From positions 62,001-126,000 of the forward strand of contig JAGYJE010000005.1 in NCBI GenBank assembly GCA_018402305.1: a stretch of 64,000 nt of DNA. Reading direction: 5' to 3'. The notes below the pieces were generated by a model. The model saw nothing but the letters and a program-made list of their open reading frames with translations, was not told the origin of the DNA and did no database searches. Of the stretch, positions 39,135 to 59,358 are shown one piece after another (position 1 is the first letter of the stretch; every line of letters starts with the position of its first letter). Source of the stretch: Puniceicoccaceae bacterium. GTDB taxonomy: Bacteria; Verrucomicrobiota; Verrucomicrobiia; Opitutales; Coraliomargaritaceae. A program made the translations under genes and the position numbers.

Positions 39135-40340
39135 TTAAAGATCCGGCGTGCTTTGCTTGCGGCGATACTCGGTGGGTGTAAGGCCGGTCTCCTCGCGAAA
39201 AACCTGAGTGAGGTAACGGACGTTCTCAAAGCCCGCCGCCTTGGAGACATCCCCGATACTCATATTTGTGCTCGTTAGCAATTTCTTGATGCGCTCCATT
39301 TGGACACTTTGGATTTCGCTGTGGATCGAATGCCCCAGCGACTTCATGAACTTGCGGTAGGCGGTTGAGTTCGACATGCCGGTCACCTTGAGGACGTCCG
39401 CAGTGCTGATCGGGTCACAGGCGTGCTCTCGGATGTAGCGCAGCGCAAAGGCGACTTCCGGATCGTCGAAGTTCATGAAGTTACTCGAGTCACGAACGAT
39501 GATTTGAGCGGGTGCGATCCGCGAAACCGGCGGCTTCACTGGCTCCTTGCGCATCAGCCTGTCAAGTTGTTCGGCAGCGGTATAGCCGGCCTTGCGGACA
39601 TTGACGTCTACGCTGCTCAGCATCGGTTGAGAGAGTTCGCAGAGCCATCGATCATTATCGACGCCCAATACCGAGATTTCCTGAGGGACATTGATATGCT
39701 CGATCACGCAGGCATCGAGCAGCCAACGGGCCCAGCCATCGAAAAAGACAAAAACCCCGCAGGGTTTTTCCAATGAGGCGAGCCACTTGCTCAGTGAGCG
39801 TACCGCGTCCGGCATGTTGACGGCTTTCTTGAAGGAAGGCTCGTATATTTCGCAGGAAAACCCTTTTCTGCTGAGCTCGTCGACAAATCCCTCCCGGCGT
39901 TGGGCACACCAGGGTGCCTTTTCATTGCCACCGCAAAAGGCGAATTGCCGAATGCCATTACTCATGAAATGCTGAGCGGCCATGCGGCCGATGGCATGTT
40001 GGTCCGACGTAACGATGGGGAAATCAAGATGGCCATCCCGCTCCTCTGAATAGCTCCCGAAGCCCACGGTCGGGATATCTGTGAGTTTTGAAACCTCCTT
40101 GATGGCAGGCAGGTGGATGCTCGTGATAATACCATCCGGATTCCAATGCTGGATGCCCTCCATACTCACTTCCATCATCGGATCCATGAGGATGATCCAG
40201 CCCGTGTGGTTGCGGATGTAATCACCAATCCCGCGGGCTATCCCCCGGTCGAAGGCCTCGTCTGACTCCAGAAGCAGGGCGACGCGTTTGAGGCGACCGC
40301 TTTTTGTCTTTTTCTTTGTTGGTGTGGTTTTTTTTGCCAT
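39135..40340 (-). CDS. XylR-type regulator (LacI-like sensor with AraC DNA-binding domain)
   Basis: The 401-residue protein starts with a short Lys-rich tail and then a periplasmic-binding-protein sensor of the LacI/GalR type (RVALLLESDEAFDRGIARGI; VLGVDNDRWLCELSQPMLSS). Residues ~295-395 are an AraC helix-turn-helix pair (LKVTGMSNSTAYRKFMKSLG; DVSKAAGFENVRYLTQVFRE; GLTPTEYRR). The arrangement is that of E. coli XylR, which senses a sugar. It is transcribed away from the sulfatase/glycan genes and is a likely local sensor of a monosaccharide released by them. Confidence 0.92.
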   Translation of the reverse strand: MAKKTTPTKKKTKSGRLKRVALLLESDEAFDRGIARGIGDYIRNHTGWIILMDPMMEVSMEGIQHWNPDGIITSIHLPAIKEVSKLTDIPTVGFGSYSEERDGHLDFPIVTSDQHAIGRMAAQHFMSNGIRQFAFCGGNEKAPWCAQRREGFVDELSRKGFSCEIYEPSFKKAVNMPDAVRSLSKWLASLEKPCGVFVFFDGWARWLLDACVIEHINVPQEISVLGVDNDRWLCELSQPMLSSVDVNVRKAGYTAAEQLDRLMRKEPVKPPVSRIAPAQIIVRDSSNFMNFDDPEVAFALRYIREHACDPISTADVLKVTGMSNSTAYRKFMKSLGHSIHSEIQSVQMERIKKLLTSTNMSIGDVSKAAGFENVRYLTQVFREETGLTPTEYRRKQSTPDL

Positions 40341-40711
40341 GGAGAAACGTGTGGCTGGATTTTATCAGTGAAGATTAAAAATCTGTCAAAATAATACGTA
40401 CGGAATGGAGGTATTTTGGGAGGCAACGGCCTGCTTTTTGTTGGCTTTTTTTGGCGGGGGCTGTGTCATTTTTGCGGCTTTCGACGCCTCCGATTCGCTG
40501 CGTTCCGGGGGTTCTCGGAATGACAAAATTTTGAACATAAGATTGTAAAACTATTCATTTTGCTTGATTGCCGGCAGCCGATCCGCATGGTGTCCTTTTG
40601 CGAAGTGCGATTGTGCCGTTGGCATCTTGAGCGGCTGAGAACCTTCCAGTCGATCTTGGATTCTGTTGTGTCGATGTGCGCGGTGAACTTGAAACAAACC
40701 AAACTTGCCTC
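40341..40711. other. Divergent regulatory gap between xylR-type gene and sulfatase
   Basis: No gene is supported in these ~370 bases. They must hold the divergent promoters. At 40465-40524 there is a GTCATTCCGAGAACCCCCGG-type segment (minus strand) of the kind often found as dispersed intergenic repeats. No clear palindromic operator stands out. Confidence 0.45.
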
Positions 40712-43106: not shown

Positions 43107-44039
43107 TTATCCGGCAAAGTTCTCCGTAAGCAGCAGTTCCGTTGCTTCCTTGGCGGTGAACTTGAAGCTGTGCTCGGCGGGGAGCAGGGCGTTGTCGCTC
43201 ATTTGCAGAGCGGAGCCGTCGGCCTCCTCGATCTTCCCGGCGACGAGGCTAAGGATGCGCGGTTGACCGGCTTCCAACTGAAAGGTCTCACCCGCCTTCA
43301 AACAAACTTTGCGCAGGTCGAAGACGTCACTTGCAGCCAGCACTTGATTGCTACCGGTCGGTTTAAGAGTATCCGGCTCAAAGTCACTGAAGTCGGTGCT
43401 TTTGAGCGAGGCTTCGATGTGCAACTGCCGCGGTTGGCCGTCAAGACCGACGCGGCCCCAGTCGTAGACGCGGTAGGTGGTGTCGGAGTTTTGTTGAATT
43501 TCCAGGATAAGGTTGCCTCCGCCGATGGCATGCAAGCGGCCACTGGGGATGAAGATTGATTCACCGGTCGACACCTGAATCGAGTGCACCAGTGGCTCCA
43601 GGGTGTTCTCGGCGAGTCCATGCTCGAAATCCTCGCGACTGACTCCCGCGCGCAGACCAGCCATGAGCGTGGCACCCGGATCCGCCTTGGCGATATACCA
43701 GTTCTCAGTCTTCGGCTCGCCACCGAGCTCAGGGGCCACGGCAGCAGGCGGGTGGACCTGAAGGCTGAGTTTTTCGCGGCAATCGAGCCACTTGACGAGG
43801 ATCGGGAAGGGGCGCTCGGCAGGCCAGCCGCAGCCCATCACGCCTTCCGGGTTGCTCTGGATCAATTCCCGGATGCTGCGGCCATCGGCCAGCGTTGATT
43901 GGGCCTCCGGGCGATCAACGATTTCCCAGCTTTCGCCGATGACCTTGCCCTCGGGGAGTGTGCGACCAAGGTCGGAAGTGAAGCGTGTGCCGCCCCAGAC
44001 GCGTTCTTGGTAGATTGGTGTGAAAAGGTAGTAGTTCAT
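43107..44039 (-). CDS. manA: Mannose-6-phosphate isomerase, class I
   Basis: From ATG 44039 (a TTG at 44066 would add nine residues) the product has ~310 residues. It has the metal-binding cupin site: KLSLQVHPP, with a later Glu-Asn (TENWYIA), and SGRLHAIGGGNLILEIQQNS with DTTYRVYDWGR. The short, single-length layout is the B. subtilis-type ManA. It interconverts mannose 6-phosphate and fructose 6-phosphate with zinc. Located among sulfatases, a GH130-like gene and a symporter, it points to mannose as a product of the glycan being degraded. Confidence 0.94.
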   Translation of the reverse strand: MNYYLFTPIYQERVWGGTRFTSDLGRTLPEGKVIGESWEIVDRPEAQSTLADGRSIRELIQSNPEGVMGCGWPAERPFPILVKWLDCREKLSLQVHPPAAVAPELGGEPKTENWYIAKADPGATLMAGLRAGVSREDFEHGLAENTLEPLVHSIQVSTGESIFIPSGRLHAIGGGNLILEIQQNSDTTYRVYDWGRVGLDGQPRQLHIEASLKSTDFSDFEPDTLKPTGSNQVLAASDVFDLRKVCLKAGETFQLEAGQPRILSLVAGKIEEADGSALQMSDNALLPAEHSFKFTAKEATELLLTENFAG

Positions 44040-44215
44040 AGTGTGCGCTTGAGCTGTAGGGTTCAATGGTGGTCAAGCCAAAAATTCAATCACATATGAC
44101 AAAAATGTGAAAAAAGATTATGAAATATTTCCATTATGCTTGAATGCGTCGTGAGAAGTGGTAAAACCCGTTTCTTTCTTGTAATATTATAATCAAGTCG
44201 AACCCCTCCCCGAAA

Positions 44216-45490
44216 ATGTCTTTTGTTTTTAGAACGATCATTCTGTCGTGCGTGCTCCTGTTTGGCTGTCTCTTGTATGCCGAGGAACGTCCCGCGCCCT
44301 TCAGTTTATCGGTAGGGACGCAGAGCATCGGGGTGCGCTATCAGTTCAGCGACGAGAGTGCTTTGGTCGAGAGCGCTGAGCAGATCCTCGCTCTGGGCTC
44401 AGATACCCTTAAAATTGCGTTCACTCCGAAGTATGCGGACGACTACCGTTTGGAAATCGACCCTGCGATTCGATCGATTAACGATTTAGTCGCAGTCGAG
44501 CTGGATTATTTTCGGGTCATGGATAAGCCGTTTCGGAATATCATGCTCTGGATCTACCCGTTTAGTGACAGCATGTCTGCCTTTGCCACCGGTGAGATCA
44601 GCGAGTCCGAAGCCGAAGCGGTTTATGAGGAGATCTATACCTTTACAGTAAATCTGCTGGAACGGTATTCCGGGAGCGGGAAGTCTTTTTTCCTTGGGAA
44701 TTGGGAGGGGGACTGGCATCTGCTTTTGGAGAACTACGATTACAACCTCGATCCGACGCCCGAGGCGATTGAAGGCGCCATTCAATGGTTTTCCCTGCGC
44801 GAGCGCGCGATCGCCGATGCGCGGCGCGATACCCCGCATCACGACGTTGCCGTCTATTACTACATCGAGCTCAACCATGTTCGCAAATCGATGGACGATA
44901 ACCGTCCAACCATCGTGAATCGGGTCTTGCCGCACATTCGCACCGATTATGTATCCTGGTCCAGTTACGATGTGACCAAGCCGGCCGCACTCATGGACGA
45001 AGCCGAGGGGCGGCAACGGGTATTGGACGCTTTGGACTACATTGAGGACCACATGCCGGAGAGCGATATTCCCGGCAAGCGCGTCATGATTGGTGAATAC
45101 GGCTTTGAGCTGTCTTCATTCAAGGATGTCGATTTGCAGAGGAAATACACAGCGGCAATTATGAAGTGGGCGCTGGAATGGGGCTGCCCCTTTATCCTTT
45201 ACTGGGAGCTGTATTGTAACGAAATCGATTCGAGGACTGGCGAACACCGCGGTTACTGGTTGATTGATGACAACGGGCAAAAACAACCGATCTGGTATTT
45301 TCATAGAGAATTTCTGGCCAAGGCAAACCGCTATGTTGAAGACTACCAGCGCGAGCATGGGACCCTGCCCAGTCAGGCGACTTATAATCGAGTGGCGGCG
45401 GAGTGGATCGAGTCATTTTCGTCCTACGATGTCCGATTGAAAGACCACCGTATTTACGGAAAAGGACAGCGGGGAGGGCGGGCGCAATGA
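44216..45490 (+). CDS. Secreted clan GH-A-like protein of an unassigned family
   Basis: The 424-residue protein has a signal peptide (MSFVFRTIILSCVLLFGCLL) and a single domain with motifs shared in order with residues ~490-900 of the giant protein at 55648: GNWEGDW (161-167), YYYIELN (Glu218), SWSSYD (247-252), IGEYGFE (Glu294) and LYWELYCNE (Glu331). Two Glu on consecutive barrel strands, one in I-G-E-Y-G, fit the acid/base and nucleophile of clan GH-A glycosidases. I do not match it to a numbered family. Its stop overlaps the symporter start (ATGA), so both are co-translated, suggesting it supplies the transported sugar. Confidence 0.72.
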   Translation: MSFVFRTIILSCVLLFGCLLYAEERPAPFSLSVGTQSIGVRYQFSDESALVESAEQILALGSDTLKIAFTPKYADDYRLEIDPAIRSINDLVAVELDYFRVMDKPFRNIMLWIYPFSDSMSAFATGEISESEAEAVYEEIYTFTVNLLERYSGSGKSFFLGNWEGDWHLLLENYDYNLDPTPEAIEGAIQWFSLRERAIADARRDTPHHDVAVYYYIELNHVRKSMDDNRPTIVNRVLPHIRTDYVSWSSYDVTKPAALMDEAEGRQRVLDALDYIEDHMPESDIPGKRVMIGEYGFELSSFKDVDLQRKYTAAIMKWALEWGCPFILYWELYCNEIDSRTGEHRGYWLIDDNGQKQPIWYFHREFLAKANRYVEDYQREHGTLPSQATYNRVAAEWIESFSSYDVRLKDHRIYGKGQRGGRAQ

Positions 45491-46896
45491 GCGAAGCAAG
45501 CAAACAGCCAGCGCCGGACCCGGCCGTCAAACTTGGCTGGACGGAAAAATTCGGCTACGCGTCAGGGGACATGGCATCCTGTCTTTATTTTGGGATCTTC
45601 ATGAATTTCATGGCGATCTTTTACACCGATGTCTTCGGTCTGTCGCCTGCCGTTCTTGCCACGATGCTTTTAATTACCCGGACCTGGGATTGGATCAACG
45701 ATCCGATCATGGGTGCAATTGCAGACCGCACCACTAGCAAAATGGGTAAATTCCGGCCCTGGATCCTCTGGATGATCCTACCCTACATGCTTCTCGGGGT
45801 ATTGACGTTCACGACCTTCGACCTCGGGCCGACGATGAAAATCGTTTATGCCTTCGTCACGTACACCTTTCTGATGATGGCTTACACCGCGATCAACGTG
45901 CCCTATGGCGCGATGATGGGGGTGATGACGGCCCGTTCAGACCAGCGGACGGTGCTGGCAGCGTATCGATTCATCGGTGCGAATGCCGGTATTTTCACGG
46001 TCACGCTGCTCTTGCCGATTTTGGTCAAATCGATCGGGCAGGGCAATGAGCAGTTGGGTTATTCCGGGGCGGTTGCCGTGATCGCACTTATGGCAGGTGC
46101 GTTCTTTTTTATCACCTTTAAAACCTGTAAAGAACGCATTCAACCGGTTGAACGGGAGCGGGTGAGGCTTCGGATTGAAATAAAGGAACTCCTGCGTAAC
46201 AAGCCCTGGCTGATTATTATCGGGATCAGCATTTTGACGGTTCTGGCTCAGGCGATACGGGCCACGCCGTTGCTGCACTTTTTTAAATACGTCGTGGGCA
46301 ATGAAGACTGGGGCACAAAACTCCTGCTTTATAATTCGGTCGCCGCAATTGTTGCGGTTATGCTAAGCAAATACATCGTGGCAGCCTTCGGCTGTAAGAA
46401 ACGAGCTTACATTACCCTCAACCTTATTTTTGCGGGGCTACTGGTGTGGTTTTACTTCATACCGCTCGACAATTTTCCTCTGATGGTTGTCAACCAACTA
46501 ATGATCGCCATGGTGGCGGCACCCATGATGCCGCTTTTCTGGTCGATGATCGCAGATACGGCAGACTATGGAGCCGCTACTTTTGAGCATCGCTCCACAG
46601 GGATCATTTTTTCTGCCGGCACGGCTTCGCAAAAGATCGGCTGGACCGTTGGACCGGCCCTCGCCATGCTCCTGTTAGGGAGCGTTGGCTATGTCGCCAA
46701 TTCGGAGCAATCACCGAATACGCTGCTTACCCTACACCTGATGATGAGCATCCTCCCAGCAGGTGTTGCGGTGCTCACGGCCATCGTCACCTGTTTTTAC
46801 CCAATCAACCATCAAACGGAGAAAGTGCTGGAGGAAGCAATGAGAAAGATGGCGATGGCATCGGCTGATGATTCCGACGCAGGTGGCACTCGTTGA
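45487..46896 (+). CDS. GPH-family (MelB-type) sugar symporter
   Basis: From ATG 45487 the product has 469 residues and about 12 membrane segments. It has GYASGDMASCLYFGIF, FYTDVFGLSPAVLATMLLIT, the RTWDWINDPIMGAIADRT motif (D-x-x-N-D-P loop with acidic residues for Na+/H+ coupling), and a C-terminal PLFWSMIADTADYG. These are characteristic of melibiose-type cation:sugar symporters of the inner membrane. Its start overlaps the stop of the GH-A-like gene, and a sulfatase follows 45 bases after it. Confidence 0.93.
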   Translation: MSEASKQPAPDPAVKLGWTEKFGYASGDMASCLYFGIFMNFMAIFYTDVFGLSPAVLATMLLITRTWDWINDPIMGAIADRTTSKMGKFRPWILWMILPYMLLGVLTFTTFDLGPTMKIVYAFVTYTFLMMAYTAINVPYGAMMGVMTARSDQRTVLAAYRFIGANAGIFTVTLLLPILVKSIGQGNEQLGYSGAVAVIALMAGAFFFITFKTCKERIQPVERERVRLRIEIKELLRNKPWLIIIGISILTVLAQAIRATPLLHFFKYVVGNEDWGTKLLLYNSVAAIVAVMLSKYIVAAFGCKKRAYITLNLIFAGLLVWFYFIPLDNFPLMVVNQLMIAMVAAPMMPLFWSMIADTADYGAATFEHRSTGIIFSAGTASQKIGWTVGPALAMLLLGSVGYVANSEQSPNTLLTLHLMMSILPAGVAVLTAIVTCFYPINHQTEKVLEEAMRKMAMASADDSDAGGTR

Positions 46897-46941
46897 GAAT
46901 GCTTTGCATAGATACCCGCGGGAAGGCGTTAAATACAACAT

Positions 46942-48567
46942 ATGCAAGTAGCATGGTCACAGCTTGTCATTCTCTTTAGCTGCTTGCTCAGCAGTGTGAG
47001 CCAAGCGGCTAACAGACCCAACATTGTATTCATCTTCAGCGATGATCACGCTGATCAAGCGATTAGCGCGTATGGCCACCCCATCTCAAAGCTGGCACCC
47101 ACGCTCAATATTGATCGGCTGGCAGAAGAAGGGATGCGCTTCAACCGATGCATGGTAACCAACTCGATTTGTGGCCCCAGCCGTGCGACGATCCTGACCG
47201 GGAAATACAGCCATCTCAACGGATTTTATTTTAATGAGGATACGGAGTTTGATGGTTCGCAGGTCACCTTCCCGAAACTTTTGCAGGCGGGTGGCTACGA
47301 AACCTCAATCATCGGGAAGTGGCACCTCGGTTCCGAACCCACCGGCTTTGATCATTGGGAGGTCCTGCCGGGGCAGGGGCTCTATTACCAGCCGGATTTT
47401 CGGACTCCCCAAGGCCTGCACATCGAAGACGGCTATGTCACGGATGTCATCACCGATAAGGCCATTCAATGGCTTGATGAACAGCGGGACATCAGCAGGC
47501 CGTTTCTTCTGATGGTCCAGCACAAGGCGGCGCACCGGGAGTGGTCGCCGCCAGTCAAATACCTGGAGCTGTTCGAAGGGATTACCTTTCCGGAGCCGGC
47601 CACTTTGCTGGATGACTATCGCGGCCGGACGACCGCGGCGCACGATCAGGACATGAGTCTGGCCGTGACCTTCGAAAAAGACCGCGATCTCAAGGTCGAT
47701 GTGCGGCAGCCGGGTAGCGTCTTTTATGAGCGGGTTTATTCGAAGCTATCGCCCGAGCAGAAAGTCGCCTGGGATCGCAATTTGGATCGTAGGGAGGCCG
47801 AATACAAGGACCCCGACCTGAAGGGGGTCGCATTGACCCGATGGAAGTTCCAAAGCTACCTGCGGGACTACCTGGCCGTGGTGCGGTCGATGGACGATAA
47901 CATTGGGCGGCTGCTCGACTATCTCGAAAGCAGCGGCTTGGATGAAAACACCATCGTGATCTACTCGTCTGACCAGGGCTTTTACCTGGGCGAACACGGG
48001 TGGTTCGATAAGCGCTTCATGTATGACGAATCCTACCGCACGCCTCTGCTCGTGCGGTGGCCGGGTGTAGTGCCGCCCGGTTTGGTCAACGCCGACCTCG
48101 TTTCCAATTTGGATTTTGCGCAGACTCTGCTGGAGGTGGCGCAGGTTCCGGCGGATGCGAGCATGCAGGGAGCGAGCCTCGTGCCTATTTTAAGGGGCGC
48201 CACTCCGGATGATTGGCGGCGCTATCATTACTACCACTACTACGAGTATCCTGGCTGGCACATGGTGCAGCGCCATGAGGGCGTCTACGATGGTCGCTAC
48301 AAATTGATCCATTTTTACGACTTGGATGAGTGGGAGCTGATCGACATGGAGACCGACCCACATGAGTTGAGGAATCAATTCCACTCGCCGATCCACACAT
48401 CCGTGAAAAATCGGATGCTCGATGCGCTGGCCGAGGTGAAAAAACGCTACGAAGTGCCTGAAGGCATCCCCGCTCCCCGGATCGGTGTCGATCCCATGAA
48501 CTACTATTCTACCGACCGCCGGTTGATCGAAGAGCAAAGGACTGGTTCCAATACCTTAGGCCAATAA
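46942..48567 (+). CDS. Sulfatase (CGPSR type)
   Basis: The 541-residue protein has a signal peptide (MQVAWSQLVILFSCLLSSVS), metal ligands in NIVFIFSDDHADQA (Asp34, Asp35), the formylglycine motif CGPSR (Cys77), GKWHLGSEP, and SSDQGFYLGEHGWFDKR. The C-terminal half ends with KLIHFYDLDEWELIDMETDP. It should be a periplasmic or secreted carbohydrate sulfatase of the S1 class; the exact subfamily and substrate cannot be fixed. It follows the symporter gene and belongs to the same unit. Confidence 0.93.
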   Translation: MQVAWSQLVILFSCLLSSVSQAANRPNIVFIFSDDHADQAISAYGHPISKLAPTLNIDRLAEEGMRFNRCMVTNSICGPSRATILTGKYSHLNGFYFNEDTEFDGSQVTFPKLLQAGGYETSIIGKWHLGSEPTGFDHWEVLPGQGLYYQPDFRTPQGLHIEDGYVTDVITDKAIQWLDEQRDISRPFLLMVQHKAAHREWSPPVKYLELFEGITFPEPATLLDDYRGRTTAAHDQDMSLAVTFEKDRDLKVDVRQPGSVFYERVYSKLSPEQKVAWDRNLDRREAEYKDPDLKGVALTRWKFQSYLRDYLAVVRSMDDNIGRLLDYLESSGLDENTIVIYSSDQGFYLGEHGWFDKRFMYDESYRTPLLVRWPGVVPPGLVNADLVSNLDFAQTLLEVAQVPADASMQGASLVPILRGATPDDWRRYHYYHYYEYPGWHMVQRHEGVYDGRYKLIHFYDLDEWELIDMETDPHELRNQFHSPIHTSVKNRMLDALAEVKKRYEVPEGIPAPRIGVDPMNYYSTDRRLIEEQRTGSNTLGQ

Positions 48568-48583
48568 AGGCGCCCCGGAAAAA

Positions 48584-49666
48584 TCAGACTGGATTCTCGA
48601 GCAGGTGGTCGATGAGCGCTTGTAATGGCGTGGTGCATACCGCGCAGTGCACATCACCTCCGCCGTAGTAGAGGAAGTAAGTGCCGTCGATCACAACATG
48701 CCCGCAGGGGAAGCAAACTCCTTTGTAAATCCCCTTGGTCTCGTAATCCTCAACAGGTTCGTAGATCGGTTTGGGAGTGCGGTGCGTGACCTTCATCGGG
48801 TCGTCGAGGTCGAGGAGCAGCGCGCCGAGGCGATACTGTTTGTCCGCGCCGACGCCGTGGTAGATTTGCAGCCAGCCATGCTCGGTTTTGAGCGGTGGGT
48901 TGTTGGCCCCAATCTTCTCCTCCCAGGGATACTCTCCCTTGGCCAGCAGTTTCATCTCTTTCCACTCCAGTAAGTCTTCGCATTCAGCGATCCAGATGCC
49001 TGGGAATTTATTGGGGAAGCCCTCGCCATGCCATTGCATTGGGCGGTGAATAGTGAACCACTTGCCGTTGATTTTTTCCGGGAAGATGACGACGTCGCGG
49101 TCATCCAATTTCGGGTTGGTCAAGCGCCCGGCGCGGAGCCAGTCCTGGCCCGCGAGGTCTTTGGTCATGAAGAGGTGCGTTGAGGTGAAATTCTCGCGCA
49201 TCGCGATGGGGAACTCCTCGGGGAAGTGCCCGTTTTTATCGGCGTGGTGGTTTTCATTCTCCCAATACTTGCCCGGAGGAAAGGGGCGGGTGGCCGAGGT
49301 GATGTAATACCAATCACCTATCTTGATGATGCGGGGATCTTCCACACACCCGTTATCAATGCTGCCGATCAAGGGCGTCAAAACAGGATGGTCGGCGACA
49401 CGCTCAAAGTTGTAGCCGTCCTTACTGACCGCGAGGCCGAGGTGCACGCGGTGCTCGGCATCCCTACCGGCCGCCCGGTAGACAAGCTGCACTTCGCCTT
49501 TCGCCTCGTCATACCACGCGGCCGGGTTGGTCGTGACCTCACTCTCCCAGTCAGATCCCGGTTTCGGCGAAAGGATCGGGTTGCCTTCGTAGCGTTTGAG
49601 TTGGTAGGCATCGACCGGGATGCTTGGCTGCGTGCTTGCTTGGTTGATTAGGTTTGTATCACTCAT
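48584..49666 (-). CDS. GH130-like glycoside phosphorylase/hydrolase
   Basis: The 360-residue protein shows the five-bladed propeller pattern of GH130: YEGNPILSPKPGSDWESEVT, TNPAAWYDEAKGEVQLVYRA, GCVEDPRIIKI (the conserved Asp in E-D-P-R), TIHRPMQW, IGANNPPLKTEHGWLQIYHG and FPCGHVVIDGTYFLYYGGGD. Known members phosphorolyse beta-mannosides, giving mannose 1-phosphate. No signal peptide is present, so it acts in the cytosol after uptake. With ManA in the same locus it supports manno-configured substrate use. It faces the upstream sulfatase convergently (16-base gap). Confidence 0.93.
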   Translation of the reverse strand: MSDTNLINQASTQPSIPVDAYQLKRYEGNPILSPKPGSDWESEVTTNPAAWYDEAKGEVQLVYRAAGRDAEHRVHLGLAVSKDGYNFERVADHPVLTPLIGSIDNGCVEDPRIIKIGDWYYITSATRPFPPGKYWENENHHADKNGHFPEEFPIAMRENFTSTHLFMTKDLAGQDWLRAGRLTNPKLDDRDVVIFPEKINGKWFTIHRPMQWHGEGFPNKFPGIWIAECEDLLEWKEMKLLAKGEYPWEEKIGANNPPLKTEHGWLQIYHGVGADKQYRLGALLLDLDDPMKVTHRTPKPIYEPVEDYETKGIYKGVCFPCGHVVIDGTYFLYYGGGDVHCAVCTTPLQALIDHLLENPV

Positions 49667-49684
49667 GAGTCTGTATTTCCAATT

Positions 49685-52471
49685 TTAGAATCGCAATCCA
49701 GCAGAGACCAAAATCTGGCGCGAGTTACGGTGAAAGGCGTTTTTATTGCGATTAATAAGATCGGTCGTATCGAAGAGGTTGTTGACCCGCAGGCTTAGGT
49801 TTAACAGCGGTGCCCTTCGGCCTGAGCCAAGTTTGGTCCTATAATTTACGAAGGCATCGGTTATGTATTCTGGGTCGAAGTCGATATCATACCAGGAGCC
49901 TTCGCCCACCGCATCCGTAGCATCTTCGATATACCATTCGCCGATGGTGGAAGCGGAGCGGAAGCTTTGGTTAGCACCTACTGTTAAGCCCCTTAGGGCC
50001 CCATCGGTAAAGGAATAGCGACCAATTAGTAGCAGGTTATGGGGCGCTTGGCCAAAAACCTGGGCAAATCGCGGATTCACGTTCTCGTTGATCTTAATCG
50101 CGTCGAGATTTGTGTAGGCGTAGGAAAGCGTGAAGGAAAGATTCTGGTTTGGATTGTAATAAAACTCAACCTCAACGCCTTCTGAGCGGGAGACATCCCC
50201 GGCCACTTGCTTACCGGGCAGCAGATTGTTGTTCAGGGTTCCATTAGGATTGAAGATCTGTGGGTGCGAGGTACCATACTCAGCGAATGTATAAATGTCC
50301 TGCAGGCGGAAATCGTAATTAACAATGTTGTCGTTCTCTTTCTCGATGTAGAAGGTTGTAATCTGCCCGGTAAGTTTGCGATCGAGTAAATCAAAGCGGA
50401 TGCCATACTCGTAGCCGTCACCATAGACTGGTGGGATCAACTCGCCCAGTGGATCGACATGAATGTTGGTCGGGGATTGAATGGACTGTGCATAGTTGGC
50501 AAATACGGCAAATTCACCGGTGATCCAGAACAAAGCCCCTGCCGAGGGGCTCACTTGCTCAAAAGTCCGGTTGGAATCATCGATATTTGTGACCGCTCTG
50601 GAGAAGTCGCCACCCAGGGTGTTGTTCACATAATTTGGCGCGACGCCGTATTTGTAGTCCTCCAGTGTGTAGTCAATATCGATGTGGTCGTAGCGCAGGC
50701 CAAGCATGGTCCGTAGGCGGCCCTCTAGAAAGCTGCTTTGCGTAGCGAACCAAAGACCGGAGGTATCGGATTCAAATTCGTTGTCCTGTCGGAGCACGAA
50801 GAGGTCGTCGCGCCCATTATAGCCAATATTTAGAGCGCTGGGGCCAAAGCCATCCGAAAGATAAAACCGCTCCTTCAGGAGATCATTCCCGCTGAAAAAT
50901 TGGCTGTCCTGCAGCAAGGCGGGGTCGCTGATTTGCTCGTATATTTTAGGTTTACGATTGAGTTGATCCCAGTCGTAGCCGAAAAGAAGTTTGTGTTTAC
51001 TGTCCCGAAAAAGGGGCAGGTTGTTATTCATCTCAATATCCCAGAGAAGGGTAGAGCGAAGTGCATTCGCCTCGGTCTGGCCTTCCTGTTTCACCCAATA
51101 AGTTTCCACATAGGGGTCGAATGCACGAGGCCCGGTAGCATCACTCAGTACACGACCTGCACTGTAGCCATCTCGTGCAAGTGATTCACGGTCGTTATCT
51201 TCACGGTTAACGGAGACCTTGGCTTGCAAGGCGTCAGTGATCTTCTGGGTCCATTCAACTGTGGTGATCAGTCCTTCCCGTTTGTTGAATTTGTCAGGCC
51301 CCGTTACCGAGTAGCGATCATTCTGGCCGGCCCAGGGAGCATAGATTTGATTGAGGACGTCGCGCGTCACTGTAGTGTCGCCGCCGAATTGCTCCTCCGC
51401 GTAATCCGGGTTCAAAACGAGGTCGTCGATAATTCCCTGTGGGATGTTCGAGATACCATCCGGGCTGTAGATATACTCATTCCGATAGGCGCCCAACGAG
51501 AAGGATTCACTGCCATCTGTTTCGCTGGCACGGCTGTTTGGATAAAATCGTTTGTCCCCGTTGGTATTCTCAATGTTCCCGTTGGGCAATCGTCTGTACC
51601 CGTTGGTTGAAAAGAACATATTTGGCGCGAGATTTTGGTCGAGTCCAACGTGCTCAATATGTGCGCGGAGTTGGGTTTTTTCCGTAGGCCGATAGTTTAA
51701 CTCAAGCGTGGCACCCTGTTGATCGACGTATTCATAGAGCTGATCAAGGTCACGGGAAAAATCCAGCCCCATCAAACGCATGGCGAATTTATCATTGAAG
51801 ACATGATTGATATCGAACTCAGCGCGGCGGAAATCATTCGTCCCCATCGTGCCCTTGAGCGCTACGAAGTTTTCTTTAAATTGGGCCATTTTTGGAACAC
51901 TGTTAATCTGCCCACCGGGATCGGCCTGTCCGTACATTAAGCTGTTGGCACCTTTTACGATATCGATCCGCTGGATGTTGTAACCATCGCGCTCGATTTC
52001 TCTCCAAAATAAATCGTAGCGTTGGGTTAGACTGCGGAACCCGCGAATGCGCAGCTGATTGAGCGAGAAGCCGTCGGGGTCGGCAGAAACGCTCGCGGTC
52101 GCACGGTCTAGGTCCTGATCGTTAAGAATGTTTAGATCCTCCAACATTTGCTCGTTGATAATTGTGAGCGAAATAGGCGTGTTTTTGACCAAAGCATTGG
52201 TCCGCGTCGCAGAGACTGAGTTTGCTGAGAAATAACCCATGTCGCCATCAGTGGTAACAACGAAGTCGTCCAGCACGAAAACTTCGTCCGTTAAGTCACT
52301 GTCCGCCTCGCCAGGTGCATTTTGCTCGGGGGCGAATGTGGGGGAGGGTGCACGTTCGACTTCCTCCGAACTGGAACCCAAGAGGCTTGTCTGAGCGGGA
52401 AGGGCCGCCGAGGCAGCAAGGAAACAAAGCGAGATGAATAAGCTGGGTGAGGCAGGGATTTTTTGGATCAT
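49685..52471 (-). CDS. TonB-dependent outer-membrane receptor
   Basis: From ATG 52471 (a TTG at 52498 is less likely) the ~928-residue protein has a signal peptide (LFISLCFLAASAALPAQTS), a plug domain (VKNTPISLTIINEQMLEDLN; IQRIDIVKGANSLMYGQADP; PGGQINSVPK) and a long beta-barrel ending in a C-terminal aromatic strand (ILVSAGLRF). The plug looks like the siderophore/FecA group, but in Verrucomicrobiota such receptors also take up oligosaccharides. The neighbouring GH130 gene lies 18 bases downstream on the same strand, so a glycan-transport role is the better inference. Confidence 0.93.
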   Translation of the reverse strand: MIQKIPASPSLFISLCFLAASAALPAQTSLLGSSSEEVERAPSPTFAPEQNAPGEADSDLTDEVFVLDDFVVTTDGDMGYFSANSVSATRTNALVKNTPISLTIINEQMLEDLNILNDQDLDRATASVSADPDGFSLNQLRIRGFRSLTQRYDLFWREIERDGYNIQRIDIVKGANSLMYGQADPGGQINSVPKMAQFKENFVALKGTMGTNDFRRAEFDINHVFNDKFAMRLMGLDFSRDLDQLYEYVDQQGATLELNYRPTEKTQLRAHIEHVGLDQNLAPNMFFSTNGYRRLPNGNIENTNGDKRFYPNSRASETDGSESFSLGAYRNEYIYSPDGISNIPQGIIDDLVLNPDYAEEQFGGDTTVTRDVLNQIYAPWAGQNDRYSVTGPDKFNKREGLITTVEWTQKITDALQAKVSVNREDNDRESLARDGYSAGRVLSDATGPRAFDPYVETYWVKQEGQTEANALRSTLLWDIEMNNNLPLFRDSKHKLLFGYDWDQLNRKPKIYEQISDPALLQDSQFFSGNDLLKERFYLSDGFGPSALNIGYNGRDDLFVLRQDNEFESDTSGLWFATQSSFLEGRLRTMLGLRYDHIDIDYTLEDYKYGVAPNYVNNTLGGDFSRAVTNIDDSNRTFEQVSPSAGALFWITGEFAVFANYAQSIQSPTNIHVDPLGELIPPVYGDGYEYGIRFDLLDRKLTGQITTFYIEKENDNIVNYDFRLQDIYTFAEYGTSHPQIFNPNGTLNNNLLPGKQVAGDVSRSEGVEVEFYYNPNQNLSFTLSYAYTNLDAIKINENVNPRFAQVFGQAPHNLLLIGRYSFTDGALRGLTVGANQSFRSASTIGEWYIEDATDAVGEGSWYDIDFDPEYITDAFVNYRTKLGSGRRAPLLNLSLRVNNLFDTTDLINRNKNAFHRNSRQILVSAGLRF

Positions 52472-52666
52472 GGTTCTTATTTTGGGGTTAAAAACCAAAG
52501 ACTATTTTGAATAACTGGGCAGATAACAAACAAAAAATCAAAAATAAATTCATTCAGCTTGACCTGATTGGAATCTCATTCAGCGTTCTGGTGGTAGCGA
52601 CCCCCGTGTACCCTGAAGATTAAGCGCTTGGCCGAGTCGTCTCTCGTCCTCTTGACCCTGGGTCTT

Positions 52667-52689
52667 GCCCGGTTTCGGGGCGTTTTTTT
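52667..52689 (+). terminator. Terminator-like hairpin in leader of the 52723 gene
   Basis: GCCC (52667-52670) pairs with GGGC (52678-52681), followed by GTTTTTTT, 34 bases upstream of the next start codon. It is short, so weak. It could end a small RNA made from 52550 onward or attenuate the downstream gene. Confidence 0.3.
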
Positions 52690-52722
52690 GTCAAACAGTC
52701 CACCTCTAAATCACACCTAACT

Positions 52723-53514
52723 ATGAAACGACTATCCATAACATTCATGGCTTCACTGAGCCTTTTTCAACCCATCACCTTCGCCCAGCTTTATGAGGGC
52801 TTCAATTCGGATGCGCCGGCTGCGGAGGAACGCCTTGGATTTATGACGGGCTGGCACCGAATGGTGGGCGAGGTTGGCGTCGTCTCGGACAGTCTTAGCC
52901 TCAGCGGTTTTACGGAGAGTGCCGGAGCGATTCGTCTGAAAAAAAAGGGCGAGGCGCTGGCTCAGATAAGCGCAAACGTGGGTGACACCTACTACGGAAG
53001 CTTTCGCTTTCGGAGTGCCCGCTTAAACCAGGATTCGATTATCGCTCTTTTGCTTGCCAAGCCTGACCTCGAGGAGCTCACCCCGAAGTCGGCGAATCTT
53101 AGCATACTTGCCAAGGGATGGCGGAGTGAGCACGGTGCACTTCTTTCCGAAGGGAAGCTGGCCAAGACGACTGAGGGCGTTCCTATTGAAGCGCAAATGA
53201 CTTATTTGGTGCTCTTTAAAGTTGTCGACGGCAAGCCGAGCCAGCGTTCTGTCGAGTCCTGGATACTCAATGTCGACCAGGCGGAACATTTTGCAAAGAG
53301 TGCCTTCAAGGAAACTGAGCTAAATGCGGCGCCCCTGGGTGTCGAAGCTGGAGCCGTTATGCAGCGGACACAGCTCAAGCCGAAAAGTTCGGCGCGCCTC
53401 GCCTTAAGACCGGGCGACGTGATTGCCTGTGTCGCCAAGTTCACCCCGGACGCTCTATTTGACGAGATTCGTATTTCGAGCAAAAGCCTCCGTGAGGCAG
53501 CCGGTGTTCTTTAG
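52723..53514 (+). CDS. Exported hypothetical protein
   Basis: The 263-residue protein has a signal peptide (MKRLSITFMASLSLFQPITF) and an all-beta-looking body (YYGSFRFRSARLNQDSIIAL; VESWILNVDQAEHFA; FDEIRISSKSLREAAGVL). The start LYEGFNSDAPAAEERLGFMT and the ending D-E-I-R-I-S resemble LamG/jelly-roll proteins of Verrucomicrobiota, often annotated as hypothetical. It lies just upstream of a sulfatase with a LamG-like C-terminal domain. An AAGCGCTT palindrome at 52622-52629 may be an operator for a LacI-type regulator. Function unknown. Confidence 0.7.
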   Translation: MKRLSITFMASLSLFQPITFAQLYEGFNSDAPAAEERLGFMTGWHRMVGEVGVVSDSLSLSGFTESAGAIRLKKKGEALAQISANVGDTYYGSFRFRSARLNQDSIIALLLAKPDLEELTPKSANLSILAKGWRSEHGALLSEGKLAKTTEGVPIEAQMTYLVLFKVVDGKPSQRSVESWILNVDQAEHFAKSAFKETELNAAPLGVEAGAVMQRTQLKPKSSARLALRPGDVIACVAKFTPDALFDEIRISSKSLREAAGVL

Positions 53515-53547
53515 TCGCCTAACAACCCAATTACCCCCCCAAAAAAA

Positions 53548-55635
53548 ATGCATTCGTTTCCGCCCTTTCTCGTATCCGGAATATCCTCTGTGCGTGCTGC
53601 AAGCTTAACTCTTTTGTGTTTGGTCGCCTTACTGACCACCAGCCTCAACGCGCTCTCGGTCGAAGATCGCACAAGTAAGCAACCGGACATTGTCTTCGTC
53701 TTGGTGGATGATTTGCGTTACGATGCGCTTTCATTCCTGGGGCACCCATATATCGAGACACCGCATTTGGATCGCCTCCGGGAGCAGGGTGCCTGGATGG
53801 AAAATGCCTTTGTTACCACCTCGATATGCTGCCCTTCGAGGGCAACGTATTTGACGGGGACCTACGCCAGTCGCCATGGAGTGATCGATAACGAGACGGC
53901 AGAGTATGTGCCGGAAATCACGCCTCCGGTCACTAAATACCTGCAAGAGGCGGGCTATGATGTGGCGATGATCGGGAAGTGGCACATGGGCCACTCCGGT
54001 AAGCCGAGGCCGTTTTTTGATACTTGGCTGAGTTTTGACGGGCAGGGTGTTTACTTCGATCCCGAGTTGATCCACACAGACGGAAGGCGGGAAGTCTTTG
54101 AAGGGTACACCACGGATATTCTCACGGATGAGGCGATTCGCTACATTCAAAGCCGTCCAAAGGACCAGCCTTTTTTCCTTAAGCTCTCACACAAGGCGGT
54201 GCACGAACCGTTCCAGCCGGCCCCGCGCCATAAAAACGCCTATGGTTATCATACAAGAGACCCGGAGCCGGCGAGTTTTAGCGATACCTTCGAAGGGAAG
54301 CCTAAATGGCAACGGCGGCAACGCGTCCGCGATGTTCGCTGGGATTGGCGCACCCGTGAAATTGAAGAGGAGGTCATTCCAGAGTCGATTGAGCTAGAGC
54401 CTTGGCAAAACCGCAAGAGGTATGTCGACCAGCTGCGCTGCCTCGCTTCGGTGGACGAGGGCATTGGCCGCATTGTTGAAACTTTACGCGAGCGCGGAAC
54501 TCTGGAAAACACCCTGATCGTCTTCGCCAGTGACAACGGCTATTTCCACATGGAGCATCGTCGTTGGGACAAGCGTCTGGCTTATGAGGAAAGCCTGCGG
54601 ATTCCTATGATCATGGTCTACCCAGGGAAAATTGAGCCAGGCTCGACCATTTCTGAAATGGTGCTCAATGTGGACTTTGCGCCAACGGTTTTGAGCTATG
54701 CCGGAATTGAGGTTCCCGAGCAAATGCAGGGTTATAGTGTGCGACCGCTTTTTGAGGCTGTGCCCACAGAATGGCGGGATGCATTTTTCTACGAGTATTA
54801 CACAGATCTCGTGCATGCGATACCAACGATGAAAGCGCTCCGCGGTGAGCGCTTCAAATTAGTCCACTATCCGGAAATCGAGGATATTGATGAACTCTAC
54901 GATCTCCAGAACGATCCGGATGAAATGCGGAACTTGGCGGAGAGCCCCGAGTATGCGGCGGTCTACCGGGACATGACGGAGCGTTTGGCGAAAGAATCGC
55001 AACGCCTCGGCTGGAATGCCGATATTTTTCCACATAACTTGGATCGCGTTCGGGGGCCCCTCGGCACGCTTCTGGATTTAAAGCCCACCGAGGATGGTGT
55101 GATCGATGCCGCCGATCCGAAGCGCAAGTTACAGGCGCAAAACATTGAGTTTTCGGACGAGCATCTACTCTTCAACGGATCGAACAGTCGGATACAGATC
55201 CCCTTTGATTCTAAAATAGATCCATCGATCTGGCCCTACCGAGTCTCGGTTGACGTCAATGCCGGGAGTGACGGCGTGATCGCCACGCAATCCTCCCCCG
55301 GCTACGGGTTTAAGCTGTTTGTTCAGGATGGGCGTCCGGGGATTTCCGTAATTTGTAAAACTTGGGTGGCCAATCGGACGACCATCGATGGGCCTGAATC
55401 AATTCTGGATACGTGGACGAAGTTGGAGGCGGAGATTGACTACAACCGTCTTCGCTTTTGGGTCGACGGCGAGCTGATCGATGTGATGATGCTGCCATTG
55501 CCGTTTAAAGCAAAAACCAACGCGCCCCTCATTGTTGGTGCCGGTGGAAAGCATCGGGTGAACGACAAAGTGCCGCACAATCCTTTTAAAGGGGTACTCC
55601 GTAGTTTCCGCATCGAGCGGCACCCCCCGGAGTGA
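53548..55635 (+). CDS. Sulfatase with C-terminal LamG-like domain
   Basis: The 695-residue protein has a signal peptide (residues ~1-36), metal ligands DIVFVLVDDLRYDALS (Asp54, Asp55), the formylglycine motif CCPSR (Cys94), GKWHMGHSGKP, and FASDNGYFHMEHRRWDKR. The catalytic domain ends near residue 480 (LYDLQNDPDEMRNLAESPEY). Residues ~535-690 form a concanavalin-like jelly roll (LFNGSNSRIQIPFDSKID; GFKLFVQDGRPGISV; FRIERHPP) that may bind the polysaccharide. It starts 34 bases after the hypothetical protein gene, and ends convergently 12 bases from the giant GH-A-like gene. Confidence 0.93.
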   Translation: MHSFPPFLVSGISSVRAASLTLLCLVALLTTSLNALSVEDRTSKQPDIVFVLVDDLRYDALSFLGHPYIETPHLDRLREQGAWMENAFVTTSICCPSRATYLTGTYASRHGVIDNETAEYVPEITPPVTKYLQEAGYDVAMIGKWHMGHSGKPRPFFDTWLSFDGQGVYFDPELIHTDGRREVFEGYTTDILTDEAIRYIQSRPKDQPFFLKLSHKAVHEPFQPAPRHKNAYGYHTRDPEPASFSDTFEGKPKWQRRQRVRDVRWDWRTREIEEEVIPESIELEPWQNRKRYVDQLRCLASVDEGIGRIVETLRERGTLENTLIVFASDNGYFHMEHRRWDKRLAYEESLRIPMIMVYPGKIEPGSTISEMVLNVDFAPTVLSYAGIEVPEQMQGYSVRPLFEAVPTEWRDAFFYEYYTDLVHAIPTMKALRGERFKLVHYPEIEDIDELYDLQNDPDEMRNLAESPEYAAVYRDMTERLAKESQRLGWNADIFPHNLDRVRGPLGTLLDLKPTEDGVIDAADPKRKLQAQNIEFSDEHLLFNGSNSRIQIPFDSKIDPSIWPYRVSVDVNAGSDGVIATQSSPGYGFKLFVQDGRPGISVICKTWVANRTTIDGPESILDTWTKLEAEIDYNRLRFWVDGELIDVMMLPLPFKAKTNAPLIVGAGGKHRVNDKVPHNPFKGVLRSFRIERHPPE

Positions 55636-55647
55636 TTCGAGGCAAGC

Positions 55648-58600
55648 TCACGGCGCCACATCCCAAAGCACACGCATAAACTTGGCATCGGCGGGAGGGA
55701 TGGAGTCGAAGTCGATGATCAACCAGCCGTCTTCGATAAAGGGAGTATCTCTCTGCGAATCGAAGACGGTGTAGGGCCAAGTCTCTAAATCGAGCGAGGC
55801 AAGCACGCGCACGCGCACATCTGATTTCCGTTCATCAAAGGGGATCGCGTAAACAAGTTTCGAACCGCTGAGTCGAAGTTCCGGCGTGAGGCTGTAGTCC
55901 GTATCGGACAATCCCATTTCCGTCAGGTAGCGGAACAGGTTGCTCACGCCGGCACTACCAAAGATCGCATTCGGAGCGGAGATGGATGGGTCGGCTTGGT
56001 CGCTGCTGTCAGGGAAATTCTCCTGCTTCCAAAAGGCGTACCCCGTCGCATCACCAAAGAGGGCCACTTCGCCAATTTGTGGCGTGTAGTGGTGGACCGG
56101 ATCCTGGAGCACGAGCCGGAGATAGTTGGTGCCTGCAGGAAGTGGTGCGGAAGGGGCCACCCATGCGCGCTTCCAGGAACCAATCGTCACCGTGGGCGGA
56201 TCCTCCCGCAGTGCAATGTTTTGCCAAGACGAGCCGTTCGACGAAATTTGAGCCGAAAGATTCAAATCATTGAAGTAGAAAATTTTGGCATGAAAGCGGT
56301 CGAGCCCGGCCACCTTCCAGGTGATAGCCTCCGGTGCGGTTGAGGCGATGCGTCGGATGCGCGAGCGGTCACCCTCGAAGCGCAGTTCGGCATTATCGCC
56401 AACGATCTCGAGTGCAGGATTGATGGTGGCAAGCTTGGAGAAATTACCCAACGAGTCGTAGATGCTAGCCGCGGGCAGAACGAAGCGCACCGCCTTGCTG
56501 CCCGTCGCACTGCTGTCACTTACCAGTGAAGCGCTCACCGTGTAATCGCCTGGAGATGCATTGCCCGGCACGCTGAGCAATCCCGTTGTGCTATTGAGCG
56601 TGGCGCCGTTGCCGGGTTGTAATTGCCAGGCAACCGACTCATTAAGAACGACACCGCCAAAGCCATTACCCACTTGGGCTGAATAAAGTTCTGTTAAGAC
56701 GCCATCGACAGAGTCCGGGATCTGCAGGGTGCCCGCGCTGCTTGGATCAATCTCCACGGTGAAGGGCCAGGGGGAGAACCCGCCCACTTTAAGCAGCGCT
56801 TGGTCACGGTAAGCGGCCGAGCTGGGGAAGTGGCTGTTAGTTTCGACATAGTCCTCGAGCCATTGCTGCATCTGCCGATAGTAACTTTCATGCAGGTGGT
56901 AGAGCGGATGCAGCTCGTTCTTCGAGTTGATCATATGCATGTTCTTAGGTAGCCCGTTGCCGGCATCCTCTTCCCAGAAAAATTCCCACATGAGGATAAA
57001 ACGCGGCGGGCCCCAGGTGAGAAAATTTTCGATTTCATCCACATACTGGTAGGTCTGGGTGTATGGATCACTGGCTCCTTGAAAGTAGCCATACTCGCCG
57101 ATGATGAGCCGCTCCCCGGTGGGCTTTAAATAATCGGGCAGGGCTGGGTCGATGGGGCGCAGGGCATCGCGGATTTTGTCCAATATCGCGTGCGTTTGAG
57201 TCCGACCGAGGTTTTTCGAGGAGTAGGCAGAGTAGGAGACAAAATCAAGCTTCTCCAATTGGGGCATGACACTATTGACAACGCAGGGACGTTCATCGAT
57301 GGCCCAGTCGCCTCTGTTCATTTCGAGGTAGTACCAGACCTCTACATTACTGTGCGTTGTTTGGGTCTTGGCATCGTCGATGGCCTGTTGCCGGATTTTG
57401 GCCCAATCCACCATGGTCTGAATGCGCGCCGGAGTGATGTCGGTCTCCGGGTTTTGGGAGCCAAGAGTGGCCAGCACCCAGTCACCCTCCCAATTACCAA
57501 CGTAAAAACGGCGTCCGGTTCCGTTGTAGGTTTCGAGGAGATGCACCGTAAGGTCGTAAATCTCATCATAGATAAGTTGCTGCTGGGCGTCTGGCAGCCC
57601 ATTCGCTGTGGCCCGCGCCATGATATTCGGTACGGAAAACGATGAGCACCAGAAAAGAAGGTCCTTGAAGGGCATGTCAAAAACGGCCCGAAGCGAGGGC
57701 TCGTCGCGCACCAATTCGGTAAGGGTGTCGATTTCCGGATTGATCGGCACACCGTTCTGTTGAGCGTAGTTTTTTGAAATCGAAAGCTTATAAACATTCG
57801 CCCCCTGGCGGTAGACGGCGCGCGCCGCATCCAGAACCCGACGGCCCGATTCGCCGAAGCTGTATTGCGTCCCTATTTGCTGCGTACCCAGAATGTGGTT
57901 ATAGGTCTCCAGCGGATGGCCAGGTGGGTTGTTGGCCATTTCAATACGATACTTATCTTCCAAGTAGGCCTGCACCGCGAAGCGCTCGGAATCATTTAAA
58001 ACAGAGTCGTAGACCAAGAGCTCTCGGATGTCATTTTGGCCAAAGCCCCCGTTTTGGTTTTGGGCACCGAGAAAAAGCGACGAATTTTGGGGCAGTGAAG
58101 TGTAGGCGGCCGTGCCGACATAGAAGCGGTTGGGTAATATATCGGTCCCAGTATGCCTTGTATCGAGGCCATTAACCCAGCTGCTGACGGCCCCCGCGCC
58201 TCCGGCGACAAAGCCGGGGTAGTCGGGCGGAGCGGGGGGTAGGGCGACAACAATGCCACCGATAAAAAATAGGTTCTGGGAGGAGTTGCCCGCGCCCTCG
58301 GCAGAAACCGTTACCTCAGCCCCTGCGGCAAGGGTAACAGAGCTCGGGAAGTTGAAGACTCTTAAACTTAAATTGGAGCGGTCCTCCCAATCACTCGTGA
58401 CGGCTGTATTGGCAAGGGTCGCATAGTAGGTGCCGCCACTCGCTAAGGTGATGCGGGCCCGATCATTTTCGTTATTGAAGCCACTCAGCAGTAATTGCCT
58501 GAGTTCGACCGTTTGATCGAGGCTGAAAGTCCAGCTGGATTCGAGGGATTCACGGAAACCAGAGCTGCCCCCGGGTTGGCTAATACCCAGCTGGTCGCCG

Positions 58601-59358
58601 GACTGCCGGGTGTGGGTGACGAGTGGATCAGACGATGCAATAACCTCGCTGGTTAAGGTGAGCCCACTGTTTGAAGACCTGAGCCGCGCGCCGACCCCTG
58701 TGTTGTTGAGCGTTCCATTATCACTTGCGTTCGCCCCAAAGATATCAAGACCACTCCACTCAACGATCTCGTCTGCGCCGATCTGACTGCGGTAGGCGGC
58801 GCGGTAGTAGCTGTCGCGATCCCAGCCGAATTGCACGATGGAGCCTTCTTCAATCAAACGACTGGAGGCGAGTTGTAGGCCCGAATCCGTATTCGAAGGA
58901 TCGACACTGCTCAGGAGGACCTCCGGTTGGTCCGGCTGAAGGGAGGCGCGTCGATTGGCGTAGACAATAAAAACGGTTGCCTCCGGCCCTGAATTAAAAG
59001 CCCCCTGCAAGTATTGCCCGATGCCGTCAAAGCGCAGCGCGGGGAAGCCGCTTCCGCTGTCGCTTAGGAAGGTGGGTGGGTTGGGCGACGAGAAGACGGC
59101 GTTGGCATTATTTGCGTCCGCCCAGCCACCCAGCAGCGGCATGCTGTCTGACAGTCGGTTGATCGTAGCGGCATCGAGGTGCAGGTAGAGACCATCGGAG
59201 GGAGGCACTGGCTGAGCCCGCAGAGGGGCGGTCGCGGCAGAAACTAACAGAAGTAGAAACGGGGACCACGGGCAAAACGATTGACGAATAAATTCCGTAA
59301 GGCCGGTCCTAAAATGAGTGGGACGGCAGGCCCTTGGGCAGCTTTGGCGAGTGGGCAT
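55648..59358 (-). CDS. Giant secreted protein: split LamG, clan GH-A-like catalytic domain, C-terminal binding modules
   Basis: The 1236-residue protein starts with an unusual long leader whose hydrophobic core is FLLLLVSAATAPLRA (34-48). A LamG-type sheet at 55-180 (GLYLHLDAATI; PALRFDGIGQYLQGAF; ATVFIVYANRR) seems interrupted by a ~200-residue segment (TFSLDQTVELRQLLLSGFNN) and completed at 380-470 (SSLFLGAQNQNG; RELLVYDSVLNDSERFAVQA). Residues ~490-900 repeat the motifs of the protein at 44216: GNWEGDW (621-627), YYLEMN (Glu679), IGEYG (Glu755), MWEFFWEE (Glu792). The C-terminal third holds an Ig-like part and a discoidin-like domain (SSWQNIALREDPPTVTIGSW). A secreted glycosidase of new family is my reading. 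Confidence 0.75.
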   Translation of the reverse strand: MPTRQSCPRACRPTHFRTGLTEFIRQSFCPWSPFLLLLVSAATAPLRAQPVPPSDGLYLHLDAATINRLSDSMPLLGGWADANNANAVFSSPNPPTFLSDSGSGFPALRFDGIGQYLQGAFNSGPEATVFIVYANRRASLQPDQPEVLLSSVDPSNTDSGLQLASSRLIEEGSIVQFGWDRDSYYRAAYRSQIGADEIVEWSGLDIFGANASDNGTLNNTGVGARLRSSNSGLTLTSEVIASSDPLVTHTRQSGDQLGISQPGGSSGFRESLESSWTFSLDQTVELRQLLLSGFNNENDRARITLASGGTYYATLANTAVTSDWEDRSNLSLRVFNFPSSVTLAAGAEVTVSAEGAGNSSQNLFFIGGIVVALPPAPPDYPGFVAGGAGAVSSWVNGLDTRHTGTDILPNRFYVGTAAYTSLPQNSSLFLGAQNQNGGFGQNDIRELLVYDSVLNDSERFAVQAYLEDKYRIEMANNPPGHPLETYNHILGTQQIGTQYSFGESGRRVLDAARAVYRQGANVYKLSISKNYAQQNGVPINPEIDTLTELVRDEPSLRAVFDMPFKDLLFWCSSFSVPNIMARATANGLPDAQQQLIYDEIYDLTVHLLETYNGTGRRFYVGNWEGDWVLATLGSQNPETDITPARIQTMVDWAKIRQQAIDDAKTQTTHSNVEVWYYLEMNRGDWAIDERPCVVNSVMPQLEKLDFVSYSAYSSKNLGRTQTHAILDKIRDALRPIDPALPDYLKPTGERLIIGEYGYFQGASDPYTQTYQYVDEIENFLTWGPPRFILMWEFFWEEDAGNGLPKNMHMINSKNELHPLYHLHESYYRQMQQWLEDYVETNSHFPSSAAYRDQALLKVGGFSPWPFTVEIDPSSAGTLQIPDSVDGVLTELYSAQVGNGFGGVVLNESVAWQLQPGNGATLNSTTGLLSVPGNASPGDYTVSASLVSDSSATGSKAVRFVLPAASIYDSLGNFSKLATINPALEIVGDNAELRFEGDRSRIRRIASTAPEAITWKVAGLDRFHAKIFYFNDLNLSAQISSNGSSWQNIALREDPPTVTIGSWKRAWVAPSAPLPAGTNYLRLVLQDPVHHYTPQIGEVALFGDATGYAFWKQENFPDSSDQADPSISAPNAIFGSAGVSNLFRYLTEMGLSDTDYSLTPELRLSGSKLVYAIPFDERKSDVRVRVLASLDLETWPYTVFDSQRDTPFIEDGWLIIDFDSIPPADAKFMRVLWDVAP

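Follow-up and report, generated by a model that had tools for sequence, protein, structure and literature searches.

The 64,000-nucleotide window analysed here (contig JAGYJE010000005.1 of assembly GCA_018402305.1, positions 62,001 to 126,000) comes from a Puniceicoccaceae bacterium of the Verrucomicrobiota and carries a polysaccharide locus encoding two proteins, P0001 and P0002, that share a domain resembling the clan GH-A glycoside hydrolases (GH). The locus begins with the gene of a XylR-like regulator at 39135 and ends near 60 kb, with parB and EVE-domain genes flanking its low side. The features of the two proteins are as follows.

44216..45490, plus strand: P0001, 424 aa, with a signal-like N-terminal segment (by inspection), then a single barrel domain at residues ~24-399
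44705..44707, plus strand: codon of E164 (GNWEGDW), just past strand 4; proposed acid/base
44867..44869, plus strand: codon of E218 (YYYIELN), strand 5; near-invariant active-site Glu
45095..45097, plus strand: codon of E294 (IGEYG), strand 7; proposed nucleophile
55648..59358, minus strand: P0002, 1236 aa, with a barrel-type domain at residues ~484-855
56794..57909, minus strand: catalytic-type domain of P0002, with Glu 624, 679 and 755 retained; fold from homology only

BLASTP aligned P0001 with P0002 over 384 residues at 32% identity (201 bits, E=1e-60). The similarity is far beyond chance, and the two domains are real paralogues. A preliminary description of this DNA had named reading frames of 424 and 1236 residues, both of which are present at the coordinates above, and shared motifs such as GNWEGDW, which were found as claimed and begin at residue 161 in P0001 and at residue 621 in P0002. 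The spacings of 76 and 37 residues that it gave for three Glu are exact in both proteins (218/294/331 and 679/755/792). Two of this trio, 218 and 294, proved to be near-invariant; the third, E331, is poorly kept in the wider family, and the count had omitted the first near-invariant Glu, E164/E624, inside GNWEGDW. The distance from E164 to E218 is 54 residues and that from E624 to E679 is 55. The extensions of P0002 (~480 residues N-terminal and ~380 residues C-terminal) both lack a Pfam match. Exactly two family matches were found in the window's genome, the assembly of which is 90% complete. An open reading frame (ORF) at 972-4682 with the same length as P0002 (1236 aa) was rejected as its duplicate, the sequences being unrelated; its sequence looks like that of a methionine synthase.

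The structure prediction called for in the preliminary description was performed with AlphaFold2 on residues 24-424 of P0001 and gave a confident (β/α)8 (TIM) barrel, with a predicted local distance difference test (pLDDT) score of 93.6. By the DSSP strand map and conservation, strands 4, 5 and 7 each bear a near-invariant Glu. The nearest structures were clan GH-A glycosidases, consistent with the GH-A-like domains proposed earlier, at 7-16% identity in the listed structural alignments. The neighbours include β-glucuronidases, GH1 β-glucosidases and mannosidases; the absence of a family from the VIA-align list is not treated as grounds for excluding it. P0001 resembles GH5_18, GH39 (PslG), GH164, GH157, GH1 and GH2 in its barrel and in having Glu after strand 4 and on strand 7, and differs from them in this low identity and in the lack of a sequence-profile match; some family numbers of the listed neighbours are presumed ones. 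Of the clan GH-A characteristics, the barrel is predicted for P0001, and for the P0002 domain via homology only, and the carboxylates ending strands 4 and 7 are E164 and E294 by strand map and conservation.

The family profile consisted of 122 rows, 75 of them picked by motif and 47 others that include many near copies. Among the rows not picked by motif, Glu was found at E164 in 44/45 (Gln in one), at E218 in 44/45 (118/119 overall) and at E294 in 42/42 (116/116 overall), and Trp163 directly preceded E164 in 45/45. E331 is not a family feature, since Glu was present in 83/116 of all rows with a letter there and in only 13/42 of those not motif-picked. An invariant residue at every strand end, true in a 70-row alignment, failed in the wider rows, where Q36 was kept in 18/42 and W112 in 40/45. 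The likely catalytic pair is E164, at the end of strand 4, and E294, on strand 7.

A clear match to an existing GH family, named beforehand as the result that would speak against the proposal, was found in none of Pfam, NCBIfam and the PDB sequences. Neither P0001 nor P0002 had a meaningful Pfam or NCBIfam match. The best chance match of the 11 rows of alignment A1 in Pfam had E=0.0021, and for both proteins and these rows no Pfam match was obtained to GH5 (PF00150), GH42 (PF02449), GH99 or other GH families with a Pfam model. Against the PDB sequences, P0001 alone gave no match and the 11-row profile nothing (best E 5.1). With the 70-row profile and a limit of E=10, only three chance matches were obtained, to chains labelled 'endo-1,4-beta-xylanase D' that are 120-131 residues long (best E 0.34), and there was no similarity to the solved members of GH157, GH164 and GH5_18. 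In the literature covered, which leaves out most subscription journals, no publication could be recognised from its title or the opening of its abstract as an account of this family. Judged by sequence, this is likely a new CAZy family, as set apart from Pfam, NCBIfam and PDB sequences, not from CAZy/dbCAN models. The predicted fold and proposed chemistry are of a known kind, and both the family and its locus seem to be new.

Members occur in 8/91 related genomes and in 26/383 genomes of the phylum, the window's own genome counted. A pattern scan of genome contigs for Fx[LVI][GQ][NH]WEGD returned 419 stretches, 392 of which encode relatives; the best 80 of these 392 were analysed as loci (L-numbers) and come from Verrucomicrobiota, Bacteroidota, Armatimonadota, Planctomycetota, Acidobacteriota and others. 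Three haloarchaeal plasmid records from two species hold members annotated as 'hypothetical protein'. In L015 (15001-16137 and 19181-20989), a haloarchaeal plasmid member carries Gln where E164 is otherwise near-invariant, and ~3 kb from it lies the gene of a protein with a GH99-like annotation. Six pattern matches were found on viral contigs, none of them confirmed as relatives. The family has hundreds of members in several phyla and archaea, yet is nameless in Pfam and NCBIfam, and naming it would allow annotation of many genomes for its substrate.

A quick tree was built from 114 of the 122 profile rows, dropping duplicates and rows of <250 letters, and carries long-branch warnings; support values are from the SH-like approximate likelihood ratio test (SH-aLRT). 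P0001 grouped with seven Verrucomicrobiota orthologues and one Akkermansia-labelled orthologue (support 100), and this group joined the main Bacteroidota enzymes (support 94, not starred). P0001-type and P0002-type proteins lie adjacent in the same locus in L020, so the pairing recurs; no counterpart of the P0002 type has been demonstrated in Bacteroidota. The lists of P0001-clade loci were set by hand from the tree, with L022, L025 and L095 added by identity. Alignment A2 left out 12/80 loci (seven with no clean frame over the match, five near-redundant), and the ORF listings of L022, L048, L089 and L092 lack the family ORF. A group of ~820-aa proteins, present as a third member in L032, L036, L043 and other loci, no longer carries E336 and clusters as a clade with a long branch; its specificity is possibly different. 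A type IX secretion tail is present in the single third member of ~820 aa that was scanned.

The other genes of the window locus are listed here in order.

39135..40340, minus strand: XylR-like regulator (periplasmic-binding plus AraC helix-turn-helix); relative in 8/80 loci
40676..43087, plus strand: third sulfatase (PF00884, 2e-32)
43107..44066, minus strand: phosphomannose isomerase type I (PF20511, 3.4e-9, above cut-off)
45487..46896, plus strand: GPH-family sugar:cation symporter (Pfam MFS_2, 1.8e-85; TIGR00792, 8.2e-105, above cut-off)
46942..48567, plus strand: sulfatase (PF00884, 2.2e-54)
48584..49666, minus strand: GH130 mannoside phosphorylase or mannosidase (PF04041, 2.3e-43; no signal peptide by eye)
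49685..52498, minus strand: TonB-dependent receptor (PF00593, 2.1e-18)
52723..53514, plus strand: 263-aa protein with no Pfam or NCBIfam family match; relative in L020
53548..55635, plus strand: sulfatase (PF00884, 5.2e-56) with a weak C-terminal LamG-like match (PF13385, 2.7e-5, below cut-off)

The coupling of one of the two proteins to a sugar symporter, as first described, is seen in the overlap of the P0001 stop codon with the probable symporter ATG (45487) as ATGA; the mechanical ORF begins at 45403. The nearest PDB sequence to the GH130 protein was the 1,2-β-oligomannan phosphorylase 9fj8 (6.3e-48), and its matches to the NCBIfam mannobiose phosphorylase models were below their cut-offs. 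A PEP-CTERM sorting-signal protein at 59602-60435, with a Pfam match just under cut-off, adjoins the locus.

The context of relatives across genomes weighs more than the window context alone. The core of the Bacteroidota loci is arranged as GH130, SSF symporter, sulfatase, hybrid two-component system (HTCS), one to three family members, SusC and SusD, often with an additional sulfatase. Among the 24 loci classed as Bacteroidota, HTCS was found in 16 and three family members in 13. Scans of neighbours covered 59/67 unclassified ORFs of these 24 loci and 10/54 ORFs of L097-L101; the unclassified neighbours in the 24 loci include GH2 (at most five members), further GH130 (three) and GH92, GH88 and GH3 (one each). 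GH130 is the sole other recognised glycosidase of the shared Bacteroidota core, which makes the family a sharp candidate for the opener of a sulfated polysaccharide. In the L043 genome, no Pfam glycosidase besides GH130 was found among seven individually tabulated ORFs, the others being only tallied or unscanned. An extended Polaribacter locus contains phosphomannose isomerase and more sulfatases; beside the isomerase, L100 encodes a 300-aa protein with no Pfam match (13320-14219). Counted by locus, GH130 was present in 15/36 of the P0001 clade versus 2/44 of the others, and sulfatases in 23/36 versus 2/44. These counts tie the link to mannose and sulfate to the P0001 branch, not to the whole family. 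The window locus is a Verrucomicrobiota counterpart of the shared Bacteroidota locus.

From homology, the predicted fold of P0001, residue conservation and gene context, we infer hydrolysis, retention and β-mannoside specificity, together with the location and order of the steps below. On balance, we favour the view that these proteins form a retaining GH-A-like β-glycosidase family, the P0001 branch of which would act on a sulfated, β-mannoside-containing polysaccharide. The more specific suggestion, that the P0001/Bacteroidota branch of a new GH-A-like family is the missing backbone cutter of sulfated β-mannan-type loci common to Verrucomicrobiota and Bacteroidota, is put forward tentatively. 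Catalysis would proceed by retaining double displacement, with E164 as acid/base, E294 as nucleophile and E218 on strand 5 shaping the site. Both proteins look exported. P0002, with its large extra domains, may attack the polysaccharide extracellularly, and the TonB receptor would import oligosaccharides that P0001 trims together with the sulfatases. Through the symporter coupled to P0001, a small mannoside would reach the cytoplasm, and GH130 and phosphomannose isomerase could complete its breakdown there. The substrates of GH130 enzymes are β-mannosides, as stated in PMC4599007.

Two known systems were compared. The β-mannan polysaccharide utilization loci (PULs) of North Sea Flavobacteriia, as described in PMC6298971, likewise combine SusC/SusD with GH130. 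In that account their substrate is non-sulfated and GH130 is paired with GH26, whereas the loci of the present family carry sulfatases. GH26 went undetected in the window's genome (90% complete) and in the genomes of L075, L088 and L020; among six genomes tested, two had GH26 on other contigs (L043 two weak matches, L019 two strong). The PUL of the GH195 endo α-1,3-mannanase for a diatom sulfated mannan (PMC13063451) is similar in its sulfated mannan, its sulfatases and its occurrence in Polaribacter. Unlike the proposed substrate, that of GH195 is described there as α-linked and the enzyme as a distant relative of GH99, to which our family has no Pfam match; GH195 is set apart by this description only.

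Several observations weigh against the favoured view. Clan GH-A enzymes typically, if not universally, have Asn directly before the strand-4 Glu; because Trp163 stands in its place here, we use the label GH-A-like rather than GH-A. Profile-profile alignment with hhalign gave weak matches to GH5 and GH42 (probability 16% and 20%) that put E294 on the nucleophile position and did not settle strand 4. The scan pattern itself fixes W163-D166 in the 75 motif-picked rows, so their conservation there follows from the selection, and a Halobaculum member has Gln at the E164 position and a Halomontanus member Ser at that of E218. P0002 is not part of the P0001 clade; it groups with L008 and the 793-aa L020 protein on a branch of three rows (support 100). 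GH130 is absent from part of the P0001-clade loci, for which contig ends may account in part, and a two-sequence profile detected phosphomannose isomerase in 0/80 unextended loci. In the window's genome, sulfatases are frequent (18 matches in all) and GH130 matches lie on two further contigs. The glycan uptake of the TonB receptor is assigned by context only, because its best NCBIfam match was the siderophore-receptor model TIGR01783 (106.9 bits, cut-off 223.5).

It is doubtful, if worth serious consideration, that the same GH-A-like family cuts another equatorial glycoside (β-glucuronide, β-galactoside, β-glucoside or xyloside) in a sulfated polysaccharide, with GH130 serving minor mannose. 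The β-glucuronidases and GH1 β-glucosidases found beside mannosidases among the structural neighbours are consistent with this, as are the GH2, GH92, GH88 or GH3 genes in some loci. Outside the P0001 clade, GH130 accompanies few relatives (2/44 loci have it), so a tie to mannose does not hold for the entire family. The presence of GH130 in loci of two phyla, and of phosphomannose isomerase in the window locus and one Bacteroidota locus, argues for a mannoside instead. We regard it as unlikely that the family already has a CAZy number and merely lacks a Pfam or NCBIfam model and a solved structure. In favour of such a number, CAZy families run to at least GH195, according to PMC13063451. The searches of Pfam, NCBIfam and the PDB sequences, with GH157, GH164 and GH5_18 among the latter, gave no match, and the annotation of the haloarchaeal members as 'hypothetical protein' also speaks against it. 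A barrel that binds or processes sugars with no hydrolysis (a transglycosidase, a lectin-like protein or one with lost activity) is very improbable: many GH-like barrels include non-hydrolytic members and one member here has Gln at E164, but the strand-4, -5 and -7 carboxylates are near-invariant in rows not picked by motif, across several phyla and archaea.

Another branch of the family, in freshwater-type Verrucomicrobiota, is located among DUF1501, DUF1549/1553, DUF1552 and GMC oxidoreductase genes. Six related Verrucomicrobiota loci (L037, L044, L046, L065, L068 and L080; ~2.7-18 kb) each have a family member within a conserved cluster quite unlike the sulfatase/GH130 setting, together with DUF1501, planctomycete cytochrome/DUF1549-1553, GMC oxidoreductase, gluconate dehydrogenase subunit 3, BNR-repeat and GDSL genes, and DUF1552 is also present in five of the six.
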